A stretch of 64,000 nucleotides of DNA, taken from positions 1 to 64,000 of the forward strand of contig JANQJZ010000048.1 of the NCBI GenBank assembly GCA_028281365.1, in the 5' to 3' direction. The stretch comes from Gammaproteobacteria bacterium (lineage in GTDB: Bacteria > Pseudomonadota > Gammaproteobacteria > Eutrophobiales > Eutrophobiaceae). How positions within the stretch are numbered: the first letter of the stretch is position 1; every line of letters starts with the position of its first letter. Both the position numbers and the translations under genes were made by a program. Shown here piece after piece: positions 43,861 to 54,751 of this stretch. The notes below the pieces were generated by a model. It saw only the letters and a list, made by a program, of their open reading frames with translations. It did not search any database and had not been told where the DNA came from.

Positions 43861-44514
43861 CTATAGTCTAATTATCGACTCTATTATTACTAATAATATT
43901 ATAAATATAATGAGTGAAATTCGATATTTACACATAAAAATTTTGATTTTAAAAAATGAACCTTTGACTTCATAGATAATTTCACTAATTGTTGAATATT
44001 TATCATGTAAACATACACAAGAATTTTCAACTTTATTTACAGTTTCAGTTAATTCACTAAGAAATTCATTAATTATTGTGTGTCTTTCATTACGATTTTT
44101 AATATGTGCGTTTTCAATATTCAATGTTAATCTAAATTTTAATTTTGAAATATCCTCTGTACTTAAAACATTTAATTCATAATCTTTTAATATTTTCGCA
44201 TACAACTCTATATTTGAAAGATCGTATAAAAATTTACGTAATTGAATTCTATTCTTTTGTTTTTTATTGATTTTGCTTGTTATTTCTTCTGGTTTAGTTA
44301 TTGATACTTCATTCCAAAATTTATAACCATCTTCACCAAGTTTCTTTAGAAGGTTAATTATTTTACTATGCAGATCCTTTTTTTCTACTCGAAAAAGGAT
44401 TCGGTTTGAATTCCAAATAAAAATTAACCACCCAAAAATAATTAAAGAAGGAATTATATTTGATGAAATAAGTTTATATGTTGAGCAAAATCCATTTATT
44501 AATAAATCTAACAT
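43861..44514 (-). CDS. Membrane protein with two terminal spans and a helical core; candidate effector
   Basis: 217 residues, third gene of the accessory operon. A membrane segment near the N terminus (about 18-36), a long charged helical/coiled-coil region (about 45-190, rich in Lys, Glu and Asn), and a second span at the very C terminus (about 197-215). No catalytic motif is visible and I recognise no family. It starts six bases after the DUF4325 gene, so it is translated from the same message. Together with a GHKL/STAS sensor pair this topology fits a membrane-acting effector, which is inference. Confidence 0.7.
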   Translation of the reverse strand: MLDLLINGFCSTYKLISSNIIPSLIIFGWLIFIWNSNRILFRVEKKDLHSKIINLLKKLGEDGYKFWNEVSITKPEEITSKINKKQKNRIQLRKFLYDLSNIELYAKILKDYELNVLSTEDISKLKFRLTLNIENAHIKNRNERHTIINEFLSELTETVNKVENSCVCLHDKYSTISEIIYEVKGSFFKIKIFMCKYRISLIIFIILLVIIESIIRL

Positions 44515-44520
44515 TTCCTT

Positions 44521-44871
44521 TTATTCTGATTCTATTAAAGGAATATCTCTTTCAATACCATATGCAGCGTTATCTACGACATATTTATAATCTTCAAGGT
44601 AGGACTTAAGTTCATGTTTAAACGTAACTTTTGCAAGTAGCTCTTTTTTATTCATATAACCTCTTCTAATAATGCCACCAAAAGTTTCTTCAATAAAAGA
44701 AGGGCCACATAACACATCTTCAAAATCGACAATTACGTACTCGAAGTCATTCAAAGCAGGCATAATAAAGTCTTCTCTAAATCTTTGCCCATTGTCAGGA
44801 CCATCTCTTGGATCTCTTCCGTAAGGATCTGTAGAAAAGTCACTCTTTACATTTATTTTTTTTGTCATCAT
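44521..44871 (-). CDS. STAS-like (DUF4325) domain protein
   Basis: 116 residues. The core VIVDFEDVLCGPSFIEETFGG (in two parts, about 46-66) is the strand-turn-helix of the STAS-like DUF4325 family; the N-terminal 30 residues are charged and possibly disordered. STAS domains are classical partners of GHKL ATPases in anti-sigma/anti-anti-sigma switches. It starts three bases after the GHKL gene. Biochemical role unproven. Confidence 0.8.
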   Translation of the reverse strand: MMTKKINVKSDFSTDPYGRDPRDGPDNGQRFREDFIMPALNDFEYVIVDFEDVLCGPSFIEETFGGIIRRGYMNKKELLAKVTFKHELKSYLEDYKYVVDNAAYGIERDIPLIESE

Positions 44872-44874
44872 TTC

Positions 44875-45933
44875 TTATTTGCGTTCTGTACTGCTGGGAA
44901 GTGAAATATTCCATTGTATAAGAGTACCATTAATAGAGTGTTTCGAGTCGTACATAGTTTCAGATTTTTTGTTTACACTGACATTATCATAAAGATAAGT
45001 TCCTTTATTACTGAATATCCATAGTAAACCTTGAGGGTTATTTTTTGCAAATCTCATAATTCTATCAAGACCGGTTCCTCTGCCACTACCTTCCTGTTCA
45101 TAACGTGATCTTCTAAACTCTGTTGCTGCTTTAATCATAGCACAGTCATTCCCTAACGGTAGAAATTCTGAAACTATTCCTCTCACTTTTTCATAACCTG
45201 ATTGCTTTGGTAATGTGACAGGAATTCCATGGCCTAAATCATATAGTGCAATATGAATTTGATCATTAATTTGATGCCCAAGTACCCACCATCTTTCACC
45301 AAATAACCTTAAAAATTTATCTTCAAAATCCTCGTAAGCATGATTAGTAATGTTTAATAAAGCTTCATGAATTGCTTGATACACAACATTTCTTTTTTCT
45401 AAATCCGCTTCTAGCTCACCAGAGTAAAATGTTTTATCCATATCAGTAACAACTTTATTGACAGAATGACCTGCATCATGCGCAACACCAGTTCTAATTG
45501 GAAGTAAATTTGGAATCGTAATTGCTTCATCAGATATATCTACATCTTCTCTCAAAAAACCTAATGAACTTAATAACTCGTTATGTAAAGGATCTTTTAC
45601 GTTTATGTATCTAAATCTAACACCTTTATTAAACTGCTTAATTACCGAAACTGTAGAATGTAAACACAAAGTTGCAGCTGCTGTAATACTTGTTGTATTA
45701 ACAAAATTAAGTATTATCAAATCAACATCATGTGAATTAAAACTTTTAATTTTATTAATAAACCGAAGTGTTTTATCAGCACTTTTTCTGTTATAGAGCG
45801 AGAAATCAACAGGTGCTAGAAAAGAATGGCTACGTATTATATTTTTTTTATGCTTTGCTTTTTTACTTCTCTTTTGTTCATTCCTTTGTTGTCTAATTAC
45901 CCATTCTTGTACATCAGGATTAATTTTTTTCAT
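44875..45933 (-). CDS. STAS-like region fused to a GHKL (histidine-kinase-type) ATPase domain
   Basis: 352 residues, first gene of the operon. A basic N terminus (residues 11-30, many Lys/Arg) is followed by a STAS-like stretch (about 65-128; VDLIILNFVNT...SLGF) and a GHKL ATPase domain: N box E190-x3-N194 (HEALLNITNHAY), G1 box D232-x-G234-x-G236 (YDLGHGIP), and G2 box GSGRGTGL (282-289). There is no dimerisation/phosphoacceptor histidine domain or receiver, so it is closer to SpoIIAB/RsbW-like kinases than to two-component sensors. Strongly AT-rich compared with the core genome. It lies in a region downstream of ssrA, suggesting acquisition. Confidence 0.82.
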   Translation of the reverse strand: MKKINPDVQEWVIRQQRNEQKRSKKAKHKKNIIRSHSFLAPVDFSLYNRKSADKTLRFINKIKSFNSHDVDLIILNFVNTTSITAAATLCLHSTVSVIKQFNKGVRFRYINVKDPLHNELLSSLGFLREDVDISDEAITIPNLLPIRTGVAHDAGHSVNKVVTDMDKTFYSGELEADLEKRNVVYQAIHEALLNITNHAYEDFEDKFLRLFGERWWVLGHQINDQIHIALYDLGHGIPVTLPKQSGYEKVRGIVSEFLPLGNDCAMIKAATEFRRSRYEQEGSGRGTGLDRIMRFAKNNPQGLLWIFSNKGTYLYDNVSVNKKSETMYDSKHSINGTLIQWNISLPSSTERK

Positions 45934-47065: not shown

Positions 47066-47923
47066 ATGCTCAATAAAATCTTCAACAAACCATTGGAACT
47101 AAAAATTGGTGACCAGACACTCCAGTTTAATTCTGTTGCCGAGATTGTATTTTGTCTGGAAGGCAGGACATCTGTTTCTTCTACCAAGCTGGCTGAATTA
47201 CTCAAAATGCCGATTGATCAGTTAGAAGAGCAACAAAAAAAGATTGAGGAGATTAATAAATCTCTTCTAACGATGCTTAATGAGATTATTGATAAGCCGG
47301 ATAATATTGATCGTTCCATGCGTGAACTGGATACCCAGATTTTTTCACAAGATCACGGTTGGCGGGAAATCATACAGGCATTAAATAAAGTAGAAGGAGG
47401 TATCAACGATATTCGTACAGCTGTTTTAACAAAATATATGAAGTATTTGTCGACAGCTGAAGACACCGTTAAACATATCTGCGAAGAAAAGAAACGCTAT
47501 GCCAGGGATCTTGTTAAAGATGTCCCGGAAGACCTGGATGCAACCTGGGCCATCAGCCAACTGCGTAAAGATGCCAAAAAAGAAATTCCCACGGATGATA
47601 ACTTTAAACAACTCCCTAAAAACCAGAAAGTATCCGTTAACCTGTCTCCCGGTGAAAAGATTGATATACGTTTGGCATCTTACCCCTGCCAACTTGCCGC
47701 GATGAATGACAGTATTAATTTTATCGATAACAATGGCACAACAAGCTTAATGAAGGGACAAAATACTATCGGCAGGAGTGTGAAATGTTCTGTACAGATT
47801 GATCCGAATCAAAGACATGTATCAAGAAGACATCTGCATGTTTTAGTCACCGATGGACATATACTTCAATTAACGGATACTTCTTCGGAAGGGACGTTTA
47901 TTAACTCTGATTTTATTACATAG
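47066..47923 (+). CDS. FHA-domain protein
   Basis: 285 residues. The N-terminal two thirds are helical without recognised motifs (QLEEQQKKIEEINKSL, coiled-coil-like). The C-terminal forkhead-associated domain (about 215-283) has IGRS, SRRHLHV and SSEGTFIN, the residues that read phosphothreonine. No cognate kinase is nearby. The two exported paired proteins follow after a 417-base gap. Confidence 0.85.
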   Translation: MLNKIFNKPLELKIGDQTLQFNSVAEIVFCLEGRTSVSSTKLAELLKMPIDQLEEQQKKIEEINKSLLTMLNEIIDKPDNIDRSMRELDTQIFSQDHGWREIIQALNKVEGGINDIRTAVLTKYMKYLSTAEDTVKHICEEKKRYARDLVKDVPEDLDATWAISQLRKDAKKEIPTDDNFKQLPKNQKVSVNLSPGEKIDIRLASYPCQLAAMNDSINFIDNNGTTSLMKGQNTIGRSVKCSVQIDPNQRHVSRRHLHVLVTDGHILQLTDTSSEGTFINSDFIT

Positions 47924-48340: not shown

Positions 48341-49360
48341 ATGAATAACAAACTTGCAGCTAAACGTGAATATGAAAGCAACGAACCCTCAAACTGGATA
48401 GAAAGGGTTGCCGAAGCTTTTCTTAATAACAAGATCAAAAGTAATCTTAAATCAGCTACCAAGGTACATCCTTGTATTATTAATAATCAGCGTGTGTTGG
48501 TGTATGAACATGGCCTGCAGGAAAAAAATCCTGAAGCCTATCAACAGCTAAAGACATATGCTGATAAAAATAGTTTTGGCATTAAAGAAGATCAACGTGT
48601 TACCGGTGACAAACCGGTCAAGTTTGAACGACGATTGGCAGAAAGTTTACCGATGTTATTTCTTGCAAGTGGTATCTTTATGTCCGGCAATACCAACGCT
48701 GGCGATATCCCCATGCCGGGTTCTGATTCCGATATTAAGGTAATGTCTGATGTCGAAGTAACCGCTGAATATGACAGAAATGATCGTGCTTATACCCAGC
48801 AGAATGGTAAACGTTTTATTACTAATCCTTATGGTGAAACCGAATCTATCCTTGCAGTCGCGGCACAAACCAAGGCCCAGGGTGAACTAAAACGTGTTAG
48901 TACGCGTGGCATTAAGATGCCTTCGGGTTACGTTGGTGGATTTATTAATAAATACGAACATACCTTTGCTAATGGCCAGACCTTTAGTTATTACGAAGGT
49001 GAAGGCTTTGGTGCCCTTGGTTATCATGCAGATGAAGGAAAAGTTATTCTTGATGTACTTGCCGGTGGTGGTGCGTTCTCTTCGCCAAAACTTTGGGGAC
49101 CGTATGATCAATTACTTGGTGACAAGGACAATTCTTCCATGCATCTGATGATGGGTGACGGTAGCAAGGATGGTATGGGGTTATTAAAAGCATCTTATGC
49201 GATCGGTTACACCGCTGTCATGGCTGAAGAAGATTATGCAACCTTAGGTAATGCCTATAGTGGTGCTGTCCAGGACACGATGCAGCAACTTGTTGCCAGT
49301 GGTGCTACAGGTGATATAAATGTAGCTTCTACCGAAGATATTAGCGGAGACAAGATTTAA
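48341..49360 (+). CDS. Exported protein with an N-terminal module shared with its neighbour
   Basis: 339 residues. Residues about 17-88 (NWIERVAEAF, VHPCIINNQRVLVYEHGL, KEDQRV) match the start of the next protein. A hydrophobic stretch at 102-116 then NTNAG looks like a delayed signal sequence or membrane anchor. The following about 220 residues are Gly- and aromatic-rich (KYEHTFANGQTFSYYEGEGF, in parts) and unlike any family I recognise. ATG at 48341 is preferred, with GGAGAG nine bases upstream; an open frame reaches back to 48311. Confidence 0.75.
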   Translation: MNNKLAAKREYESNEPSNWIERVAEAFLNNKIKSNLKSATKVHPCIINNQRVLVYEHGLQEKNPEAYQQLKTYADKNSFGIKEDQRVTGDKPVKFERRLAESLPMLFLASGIFMSGNTNAGDIPMPGSDSDIKVMSDVEVTAEYDRNDRAYTQQNGKRFITNPYGETESILAVAAQTKAQGELKRVSTRGIKMPSGYVGGFINKYEHTFANGQTFSYYEGEGFGALGYHADEGKVILDVLAGGGAFSSPKLWGPYDQLLGDKDNSSMHLMMGDGSKDGMGLLKASYAIGYTAVMAEEDYATLGNAYSGAVQDTMQQLVASGATGDINVASTEDISGDKI

Positions 49361-49408
49361 TTTTTTAGTCATTAAATTTGTTTTCGTCGAATATGATATC
49401 GTACAGCT

Positions 49409-50296
49409 ATGGTCAAAGATACCGACGCCCTTGATAATCTGAAGCGTATCGAGGCACAAAAACAACCTGGAAACTGGGTGGATCGCATTGTTAACTCAAT
49501 GCGATCCAAAAAGAAACGGGCCATGGTTCACCCTTGCGTTATCGATGGCCATCGAACTCTCGTCTATGAACGTGGATTAGCAGAGACTGATCCCCACTCG
49601 TTCCAACTGCTGGTTGAATATGCTGACGCATATGGTTATCTGCTGAAAGAAGACCAACGTGCTGACTTCCTCGAAGGTGTTAAACGAGTTAGAAATAAAA
49701 GTTGTGCGAATGTTATCTCTATCATGGTTCTAACGGCTGGTCTTATGTCACAAACGGCTTATGCCATCGATGATGATGATCATGACCATGCAGCACATAT
49801 TGATCCGGATATTACACAGAACAGAATCGAAACGGGTTATGATTTTAATCTCGATAGTTTTAAGACCCAGGATGAACTGGCAGCAGGATTATTGACCTGG
49901 ATTAATCAACATTCTTCTTTTGATTACAACATCGACAAGGTTCCGAAGATTAAAAAGGTATCGGCGCACCAGATTGCTAAAGTGGCATTCGGTGGTGAAT
50001 TACCTAAAGCAATTAATCCCGAAAGCCTGCAGATTTTTGGTTTGTATAACTTCAATGAGGAAACTGTTTACCTGCTTGATTCAATTGATCTGGAAACAAA
50101 CGAAGGCAAAGCGATCCTGCTACATGAGTTAGTCCATTTTCTGCAATACCAGACCGGTATTGATAAAGATGCGAAATGCAAGAATGAACTGGAATCGTTG
50201 GCTTACGTTCTGGAAGCGAAGTTTCTGGACGCCCATCACCATGATCATAACATCAGTATGAGCCATATCTGGAAAGTCAGCCAATGTAAAGTTTAA
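49409..50296 (+). CDS. Exported putative zinc metallopeptidase with shared N-terminal module
   Basis: 295 residues. The module at about 21-85 (NWVDRIVNSM, VHPCVIDGHRTLVYERGL, KEDQRA) is followed by a hydrophobic segment (100-113) and TAYA, a good signal-peptidase site after A119. The exported part starts with a His/Asp-rich patch (DDDDHDHAAH) and contains a zincin motif H239-E240-LV-H243 (LLHELVHFLQYQTG) with a possible third ligand Glu at 260-262. It resembles the uncharacterised DUF6647 metallopeptidase-like proteins. It ends with another His cluster (HHHDH). Located 48 bases after its partner. Confidence 0.78.
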   Translation: MVKDTDALDNLKRIEAQKQPGNWVDRIVNSMRSKKKRAMVHPCVIDGHRTLVYERGLAETDPHSFQLLVEYADAYGYLLKEDQRADFLEGVKRVRNKSCANVISIMVLTAGLMSQTAYAIDDDDHDHAAHIDPDITQNRIETGYDFNLDSFKTQDELAAGLLTWINQHSSFDYNIDKVPKIKKVSAHQIAKVAFGGELPKAINPESLQIFGLYNFNEETVYLLDSIDLETNEGKAILLHELVHFLQYQTGIDKDAKCKNELESLAYVLEAKFLDAHHHDHNISMSHIWKVSQCKV

Positions 50297-52294: not shown

Positions 52295-53710
52295 ATGGGA
52301 CAGGAAATAACATCCAGCCAATTCTCTGCGAATGACTTCAATACTTTTTCCAATATTCTGGAAGAAGAAACACGAAGTTTGGCCAGTCTATTTAAAAGTG
52401 ATGCCTTCTTTAATACAGAATATATTGGCGGTTTTGAAATCGAAACAATACTGGTTAGTCATTCGGGATTACCCGTTCCTGCTAATCAGACTTTTCTTGC
52501 TAATATGAATAGTCCGCTGGTTGTACATGAACTTGCCGCTTTCAATATTGAACTAAACAGTACACCAGTATCATTGCAGGAATTTGCACTGAGTACTATG
52601 GAAGTTCAATTAAAATCTACCTGGGATAAATGCCGCAGCATCGCGCAGGAATTATCTTTGGAGATAATGATGGTTGGAATTTTACCCAGTATCAAGGAAC
52701 AGCACCTGACTTTAGCAAACATGTCCAAGCTCAACCGTTACCAGGCCCTGAATCAGCAGGTTATAAAAATGCGTGATGGCAAACCAATTCAATTACATAT
52801 CGATGGAAAGGAATCAATCCGGGCAAAACATCATAATGTAATGATTGAATCAGCCTGTACGTCACTGCAACTTCATCTACAGGCGCCAATCGAGAAAGCT
52901 GTTGATATTTATAATGCTTCAATAATGGTTTCAGCACCAATAGTCGCTGCGACAGCTAATTCACCCTATTTTTTTGGACATGACCTTTGGGATGAAACAC
53001 GTATACCTTTATTTGAACAGTCCGTTGAACTCGGTGACAAGGATTATCGGCGGGTTACCTTTGGTAGTGCTTATTGTAATGAGTCGCTGTTTGAATGTTT
53101 TAAAGAAAACCTGGATCATTATCCGGTGCTTGTACCATTAACAAACACAGAGGAAAAAAAATACCTCGATTGTCTCCGCTTTCATAATGGAACAATCTGG
53201 CGCTGGAACCGGCCATTGATCGGTATTGATGAAGACAATAATCCACATATCAGGATTGAACACCGGGTCATTCCATCCGGACCAACAGTGATTGATAGTA
53301 TTGCAAACGCTGCGTTATATTTTGGACTGGTTAACAAAATCTCCGGGCAAATTACTCCTTACATGGAAGATCTAAGTTTCGAAAATGCGAGATCTAATTT
53401 TTACAATTGCGCTAAACATGGCTTGTCTGCAGAAATTAATTGGCCAAATAAGGATATTACCCCGGTCAGGGACCTACTACTTGAAGAATTGATACCTTTG
53501 GCAAGGTCCGGATTACAACATCTTAATATCGCAGCAGAAGATATCGATCTATATCTATCCATTATTGAACATCGCGTAGATACAGGCCAAAACGGAACTA
53601 AATGGCAACGAGAATGGATCAATAAAAACGGTAAAGACATGAATTATTTAACCCGCTGTTACCTGGAGCAACAAAACTCGGGTTGCCCCGTACATGAATG
53701 GACATTATAA
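52295..53710 (+). CDS. GCS2-family carboxylate-amine ligase (glutamate-cysteine ligase-like)
   Basis: 471 residues. The N-terminal GGFEIE (E48, E50) aligns with the ATP/Mg-binding start of the GCS2 family; IQLHLQAPIEKAVDIYNASIM (in parts), SPYFFG, and RIEHRVIPSGPT belong to the active site. It probably joins an amino acid or small amine to a carboxylate. It is directly adjacent to an M14-type hydrolase gene (stop codon and next start are contiguous), so the two act together. It is not clearly the classical GshA; it could be linked to ergothioneine-type thiol chemistry, since egtD lies further down. Confidence 0.82.
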   Translation: MGQEITSSQFSANDFNTFSNILEEETRSLASLFKSDAFFNTEYIGGFEIETILVSHSGLPVPANQTFLANMNSPLVVHELAAFNIELNSTPVSLQEFALSTMEVQLKSTWDKCRSIAQELSLEIMMVGILPSIKEQHLTLANMSKLNRYQALNQQVIKMRDGKPIQLHIDGKESIRAKHHNVMIESACTSLQLHLQAPIEKAVDIYNASIMVSAPIVAATANSPYFFGHDLWDETRIPLFEQSVELGDKDYRRVTFGSAYCNESLFECFKENLDHYPVLVPLTNTEEKKYLDCLRFHNGTIWRWNRPLIGIDEDNNPHIRIEHRVIPSGPTVIDSIANAALYFGLVNKISGQITPYMEDLSFENARSNFYNCAKHGLSAEINWPNKDITPVRDLLLEELIPLARSGLQHLNIAAEDIDLYLSIIEHRVDTGQNGTKWQREWINKNGKDMNYLTRCYLEQQNSGCPVHEWTL

Positions 53711-54751
53711 GTGTTAAACATTGTTGAAAAATTTGATGATGAAATTCTGGGTTTACCGGCACATCGTTTACATGAAAAATTATCCGGACCAACCTTACTC
53801 CATCTGAAAGGAAAAAAAGAACCCTGTCTTTTCCTGTCAGCATTGTTACATGGTAATGAAAATAGTGGTTGGGAGGTTGTTAAAAACATTCTACTCAAAT
53901 ATAAAACACAACAATTACCTCGCACCTTATCGATTTTTATCGGTAATGTTAAAGCGGCGCGCTATAAAAAGCGCAGACTTGAAAATCAGCTTGACTTCAA
54001 TCGTACCTGGTGCCGGGGTGAGGCAGATGAAAATAAAATGATGTCGTCTATCATCGAACATATGAGAAAACGGAAAGTTTTTGCCAGTATTGACATTCAT
54101 AATAACAATGGTCTGAACCCGCACTATGGTTGCATAAATAAACTTGATAAACCTTTTCTAAAACTTGCAAAAGAATTTTCAAGTATGGTGATTTATTTTA
54201 TCCGCCCTTTCGGTGTCCAAAGTCTGGCATTCTCGGATTTTTGCCCGGCAATCACGCTCGAAACAGGATTGCCTGGAGACGAATACGGAATTAATTTGAC
54301 AACAAAGTTTGTTGATCATGTACTCAATATGACTTCACTTGACACAAATGAAGATGTAGATAAAGAGATTGATCTTTATCATACAATCGGTGTTATAAAA
54401 TTGCCTGGTTCATACGACTTTAGTTTTGATGGAAAGAAAGCGGATATCCAGTTCATAAAAGGTATTGAAGGTGTTAATTTTATTGAAATCAGCAGTGACA
54501 CACTACTATGCCGCTTAAAACGCAATATTGATAGACCTCTAATTGCAATGGACGAAGAAGGGAAAGATATTTTTGATGTCTTCTTTACAATTAAGGAGGA
54601 TGGTCTATACACAAAAAAAGCAATAATGCCCGCCATGTTGACCACAGATATAAATATTGTTCGCCAGGATTGTCTTGGCTATTTAATGGAGCATTACGAC
54701 ATTAAGCGCGGTGAAAAAACCACGGATAGTAATTCAGCATTATGGAAATAA
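53711..54751 (+). CDS. M14-family zinc hydrolase (aspartoacylase/AstE-like)
   Basis: 346 residues. Zinc ligands H47 and E50 (LLHGNENSG) and H130 (SIDIHNNNG), substrate arginine in DFNRTW, and catalytic E184 (ITLETGLPGD) are all in place. The C-terminal beta domain (about 225-340) is as in succinylglutamate desuccinylases/aspartoacylases. It starts with GTG directly after the stop of the GCS2 gene, indicating strict coupling. It would hydrolyse an amide such as that formed by its partner. Confidence 0.85.
   Translation: MLNIVEKFDDEILGLPAHRLHEKLSGPTLLHLKGKKEPCLFLSALLHGNENSGWEVVKNILLKYKTQQLPRTLSIFIGNVKAARYKKRRLENQLDFNRTWCRGEADENKMMSSIIEHMRKRKVFASIDIHNNNGLNPHYGCINKLDKPFLKLAKEFSSMVIYFIRPFGVQSLAFSDFCPAITLETGLPGDEYGINLTTKFVDHVLNMTSLDTNEDVDKEIDLYHTIGVIKLPGSYDFSFDGKKADIQFIKGIEGVNFIEISSDTLLCRLKRNIDRPLIAMDEEGKDIFDVFFTIKEDGLYTKKAIMPAMLTTDINIVRQDCLGYLMEHYDIKRGEKTTDSNSALWK

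Follow-up and report, generated by a model that had tools for sequence, protein, structure and literature searches.

Two adjacent genes in the window, the 64,000-nucleotide stretch of gammaproteobacterial DNA analyzed here, encode proteins (A and B) in which a small domain of the cytoplasmic type precedes a normal export signal, an arrangement that is rarely seen. Judged by its sequence, the module shared by A and B belongs, as a divergent member, to the DUF3579 family (Pfam PF12112; NMR structure 2l9d), and it probably controls how A, B and like proteins leave the cell interior. The same leader is found in other genomes on a third passenger (C) that is unrelated to either.

Signal peptides are usually viewed as short and largely passive. 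The conserved pre-signal domain, found on passengers with no relation to each other, suggests that a Sec signal can be fitted with a regulatory domain in bacteria, and it provides a first lead for the widespread DUF3579 family. The idea is directly testable, as the same genome encodes a paralogue of A that lacks the module and is a ready-made control.

The gene pair and its DUF3579-like module

The genes for A and B lie on the + strand with 48 bases between them (Table 1). The two proteins align only at the N-terminus, over ~110 residues (37% identity in a 109-residue alignment, E=5e-19 in a single BLASTP comparison), and the mature parts are unrelated (profile-profile probability 0.3%). After the module, both proteins have a basic linker of ~15 residues, a hydrophobic segment, an A-x-A site and then an exported part of their own. 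These comparisons confirm what the sequence-only reading had described, namely a related N-terminal module ahead of a signal-like segment and unrelated exported parts, and the HExxH zincin site that it had noticed in one protein is the HELVH of P0002. Within the module, conservation is strongest in a core of ~45 residues (VHPC...KEDQR), and the NW..R helix that lies ahead of this core is missing in some relatives.

Table 1. Features of the gene pair, in window coordinates
Feature	Position	Strand	Basis
Protein A gene (P0001, 339 aa)	48341..49360	+	ORF; GGAGAG upstream of ATG; 12 full-length orthologues
DUF3579-like module of A (residues 15-86; NWIER, VHPC, KEDQR)	48383..48598	+	Pfam PF12112 E=9.5e-8, above cut-off; PDB 2l9d E=2.5e-4
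Basic linker of A (residues 87-101, with FERR)	48599..48643	+	Alignment and charge count
Signal-peptide hydrophobic and c-region of A, SLPMLFLASGIFMSGNTNA, predicted cut TNA|GD	48644..48700	+	Site check; module-less paralogue with ordinary signal peptide here
Predicted exported part of A	48701..49357	+	Outside the module: no Pfam, NCBIfam or PDB match
Protein B gene (P0002, 295 aa)	49409..50296	+	ORF; 18-member family
DUF3579-like module of B (residues 19-84; NWVDR, VHPC, KEDQR)	49463..49660	+	PF12112: 25.8 bits in genome scan (above cut-off), 24.0 in protein scan
Basic linker of B (residues 85-99, ADFLEGVKRVRNKSC)	49661..49705	+	Kept in all B members
Signal-peptide hydrophobic and c-region of B, ANVISIMVLTAGLMSQTAYA, predicted cut AYA|ID	49706..49765	+	A-x-A type site in 20/20 B members
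Predicted exported part of B, zincin-like, DUF6647-related, two invariant cysteines	49766..50293	+	18/18 members match PF20352, E<=0.1; C257 and C293 invariant
HELVH zinc-site motif of B (residues 239-243)	50123..50137	+	Sequence

The P0001 module exceeds the Pfam gathering cut-off for DUF3579 (32.8 vs 25 bits) and the P0002 module is borderline against the same cut-off, at 24.0 bits in the protein scan and 25.8 bits in the genome scan, which argues that the match is not due to chance. All of the 30 relatives that were scanned (12 of A and 18 of B) match DUF3579, and 2l9d, an uncharacterized protein of solved structure, was matched at E=4.5e-11 over 64 residues by a module profile that includes four standalone members. 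The leaders resemble DUF3579 in having an NW..R helix, a beta hairpin with P..I-G-..L, a helix and a last strand. They differ from the known members, which are standalone proteins of ~100 residues with no hydrophobic segment, in forming a separate group with HPC and KED.R. The AF2 models of the A and B families agree on a beta-beta-alpha-beta core, although these are low-confidence models (pLDDT about 64-77 in the core; mean pLDDT 51 and 46, with poor quality outside of the core), and a Foldseek search of the models against the PDB gave no match at E<=0.001. In the literature library that was searched, no paper naming DUF3579 or 2l9d was found. The sequence-only reading had not recognized the module as DUF3579.

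The sequence-only reading had asked whether other proteins in the genome carry the module ahead of a hydrophobic segment, and whether it is seen only inside ordinary cytoplasmic proteins. The second case does not hold, and in other genomes the carriers of the pre-signal module include passenger C. In the window's own genome a profile scan found only the copies in A and B. The genome scan also found no standalone DUF3579 protein. A third weak match in this genome (contig C76) was dismissed as chance; it lies in a region with cytochrome-oxidase-like and AAA-like ORFs.

The export signal and the three passengers

In every one of the 44 A, B and C proteins, which are not independent of each other, an A-x-A type site follows 9-20 residues after the hydrophobic peak begins. 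The sites were called by the (-3,-1) rule, which a shuffled segment satisfies about 42% of the time per protein, so the weight of this evidence lies in the consistent position across families and not in single proteins. The features of a Sec signal (a basic n-region, a hydrophobic core of 7-15 residues, and small residues at -3 and -1) are found in the same 44 proteins. The hydrophobic core is 13-15 residues long, with 13 uncharged residues in most C members, and the linker that precedes it has a net positive charge in nearly all A, B and C proteins. The A homologues of two outlying families (G318/G208 and G196/G403) have a weak hydrophobic segment with K or Q in it.

The decisive natural control is the module-less paralogue of A in the window's own genome (contig C68, L229:2389-3024), which has 50% identity to A over 188 mature residues, lies just downstream of a tRNA-Phe gene, and starts MSNFYIFVLYFLTSSAIVFA|AD, a plain signal peptide with no module. 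Because this ordinary signal peptide is at the equivalent place, the hydrophobic segment of A is best read as a signal peptide and not as part of a globular fold, in agreement with the earlier description of it as signal-like. The paralogue also shows that the A-type fold does not require the module for its export; a second module-less homologue of the mature part of A was found in another genome (G169). Two other routes to export were considered and rejected. An internal start with an ordinary short signal was rejected, as the stretch ahead of the core has no conserved Met that would give a basic n-region, and purifying selection acts on the module. The Tat motif S/T-R-R-x-F-L-K is absent; in the window's B no RR precedes the core, and A has FERRLAE without F-L-K.

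The mature part of A has no match in Pfam, NCBIfam or the PDB and no zinc motif, and PDB sequence searches with the mature parts returned nothing credible. B and C, two of the three passengers, are zincin-like. P0002 falls just under the gathering cut-off for the putative metallopeptidases of DUF6647 (PF20352; 22.4 vs 24.1 bits), and among the 18 members of the B family, all of which match at E<=0.1, the best match is 4.4e-8. Homologues of the exported part of B that resemble DUF6647 occur elsewhere without the leader, and there is one in the window's genome. This small DUF6647/SprT-like zincin (contig C9, L103:1450-1851) has HEMVH, no leader or obvious signal, and a cysteine pattern like that of B. 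Passenger C is a HELLH zincin-like protein with four invariant cysteines that is unrelated to A and B. It has the HELLH zincin motif in common with Peptidase M91 (PF14891), but the likeness is very weak (one of 11 members, E=0.014, cut-off not reached) and C differs in its leader and its four invariant cysteines. PADLOC and PHROGs gave nothing informative, and a plasmid search gave one short match that covers the zinc-site region only.

Leader modules, standalone modules and the role of the leader

Standalone module proteins of ~100-150 residues occur in many gammaproteobacteria. In several of the families sampled (L062, L063, L068, L108-L135) their genes lie between gluQ-like and dksA-like genes, names that were assigned by sequence inspection. 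A hydrophobic stretch after the module is present in none of 100 standalone DUF3579 proteins vs 44 of 44 A, B and C leaders. In an unrooted tree built from the module columns alone, a short alignment, one branch splits 49 leader modules from 97 standalone modules (support 99/90, and 100% of 200 bootstrap trees). The leader may have had a single origin, which is compatible with this tree. An earlier tree that included 12 linker residues required 2 changes, owing to a C gene, truncated at a contig end, that had been labelled standalone. The two groups also differ in signature residues. The leader-typical H is found in 45/49 leaders vs 5/97 standalone modules, the G in 45/49 vs 20/97, and the C in 47/49 vs 45/97, and the KED.R end is a further signature of the leaders. 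The W and R that are present in 97/97 standalone modules are missing in many leaders, and both are missing in the short B leaders.

Rough pN/pS ratios (synonymous sites are near saturation) were determined among orthologues. For the 45-residue module core they are 0.16 in A, 0.22 in B and 0.12 in C, near those of the mature enzyme core (0.14, 0.13 and 0.12), and the values are well above those of the module in the N-terminal tails (0.37-0.57) and in the linkers behind the predicted cut (0.30-0.36). By these ratios purifying selection acts on the leader module as it does on the mature enzymes, and the module is probably functional. Since three unrelated passengers share the leader, its role should lie in export or regulation common to the passengers and not in the activity of any one of them; a passenger-independent, export-related role is plausible.

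The reading that we favor, which we consider about evenly balanced between right and wrong, is that of an extended, domain-sized export leader in which a DUF3579 n-region is joined to a Sec signal, controls export, and remains cytoplasmic after cleavage. The divergent DUF3579 domain (about 65-90 residues, with the beta-beta-alpha-beta core) would be made first and stay in the cytoplasm, and the basic linker and short hydrophobic segment, together a normal Sec signal peptide, would insert N-in. Signal peptidase I would then cut after A-x-A and free the passenger into the periplasm (in B and C a zinc-protease-like protein), where its paired cysteines could form disulfides. The leader of ~100-120 residues would be left tethered to the membrane, facing the cytoplasm, until it is cleared. 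The domain would most likely set the timing or targeting of export, either through binding to a factor of the cytoplasm or the translocon, or by holding back the nascent chain until the site is ready. A broader proposal is a class of bacterial export leaders in which a pre-signal domain from a cytoplasmic family moves among unrelated secreted enzymes, marks or times them for a shared export or folding pathway, and leaves a membrane-tethered remnant each time; it is put forward tentatively and is less likely than not. Of the earlier suggestion that the module is a targeting or retention tag on substrates of a common route, what stands is that a conserved module precedes the signal sequence and is common to otherwise unrelated exported proteins. 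Retention fares less well, since the A-x-A sites and the cores of 13-15 residues argue for cleavage and the passenger should therefore be released. A dedicated common route is only an inference, as no partner protein was found and the conserved neighbors are not obviously related.

The proteins could instead be uncleaved type II membrane proteins that are permanently anchored by the hydrophobic segment. The module would then serve in the cytoplasm as a sensor or interaction domain and the passenger in the periplasm as an effector or sensor, a layout of the FecR anti-sigma kind. The positively charged linker fits the positive-inside rule, and conservation of a cytoplasmic domain is most readily understood if the domain is still attached. 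However, the cores are short for an anchor, most clearly in C, the A-x-A type site is invariably present, the hydrophobic part is conserved but the linker just behind the site varies, and the C68 paralogue has an ordinary signal peptide at the same place; we regard an anchor as unlikely. It is more doubtful that the leader remnant is itself the product, with each export event leaving one DUF3579-like domain on the membrane that either sends a cytoplasmic signal (a stoichiometric reporter of export) or supplies DUF3579 function. The module is conserved nearly as strongly as the enzyme core and the window's genome has no standalone copy, both of which would suit such a product. Most genomes of the C-bearing family f124, as well as G018 and G029, also keep a standalone copy, though, and the loss in leaders of the W and R that are invariant in standalone modules does not fit a simple replacement.

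That two of the three passengers are zincin-like would suit an intramolecular inhibitor or chaperone that holds zinc proteases inactive in the cytoplasm until export, but the same leader signature residues are found on three unrelated passengers, including A with no zinc motif, and DUF6647-like proteins exist without a leader, also in the window's genome. This role is quite improbable. Slightly less probable still is a functionless fusion, in which a DUF3579 gene was joined in frame to the front of genes for secreted proteins and its product is put up with as a long n-region. Export evidently tolerates the module, and a module-less homologue exists, yet the strong purifying selection on the module, the leader-specific H, C, G, KED and R, and the sharing of the leader by three passengers in several families make a neutral fusion the rival most clearly disfavored by the data.

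Removable leaders derived from a domain are known from RiPP precursors, in which an enzyme-derived or standalone-family domain (Nif11-like or nitrile-hydratase-like) is reused at the N-terminus. These leaders are not signal peptides and head short modified peptides, whereas the passengers here are exported proteins of 170-250 residues behind a Sec-type signal. The nearest functional precedent for a domain-sized export leader is the ESPR, the extended signal peptide region of type V secretion proteins (PF13018; PMC8151025), a conserved N-terminal extension that precedes a signal-peptide-like part, is removed with it, and is common to different passengers. It has been proposed that the ESPR slows inner-membrane transport and prevents periplasmic misfolding (PMC8151025), and a two-domain layout has been described for signals of this type (PMC2805444). 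The resemblance is one of layout and not of homology. The ESPR has ~25 residues and occurs on autotransporters and TpsA proteins, whereas the leader here is a domain of 65-90 residues with standalone relatives. No PF13018 match was obtained for P0001 and P0002 (up to E=1) or for the three families A, B and C (up to E=0.1), and Pfam scans of the same proteins and families found no autotransporter or TpsA domain.

Distribution and genomic neighbors

The module precedes a long exported part in 18 of the 53 genomes sampled from the window's order, a count of long open frames that includes one degenerate case, and A and B are adjacent in 8 genomes. Variants of A were found in families f120, f157 and f145. 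Passenger C has the same leader in 11 of 40 genomes of family f124 (one gene is cut by a contig end), and a distant C occurs in family f53 (G104). In family f71, C is preceded by a degenerate leader that lacks HPC but has the basic stretch, together with a plain signal. Matches in named records come from unclassified MAGs of Gammaproteobacteria or Proteobacteria (JABFGI010000008.1, JANQNX010000014.1 and JADZEE010000091.1).

No recognizable partner gene lies near A and B, and most of the neighbors there are housekeeping genes with no relation to the pair. In 8 loci a small conserved gene (c3) is located upstream of A; it is missing from that place in the window. The neighbors of the C genes vary and include DUF5062 in some cases. 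An FHA-domain protein is encoded just upstream of A (47066-47923), and two further genomes in which A occurs but B does not (L038 and L040) have a homologue of it close to A. Downstream of the pair, a glutamate-cysteine-ligase-like gene is directly followed by an aspartoacylase-like gene (52295-54751), and this order is kept beside A and B in several genomes. Distant homologues of A (L180, L181 and L182) are arranged head to head with a gene for a DUF815 AAA ATPase in two different families. Additionally, a small STAS-like (DUF4325) protein and a larger protein with no Pfam match at E<=0.001 are encoded side by side on the - strand at 44521-45933, and an uncharacterized membrane-like protein (43861-44514) adjoins this pair.
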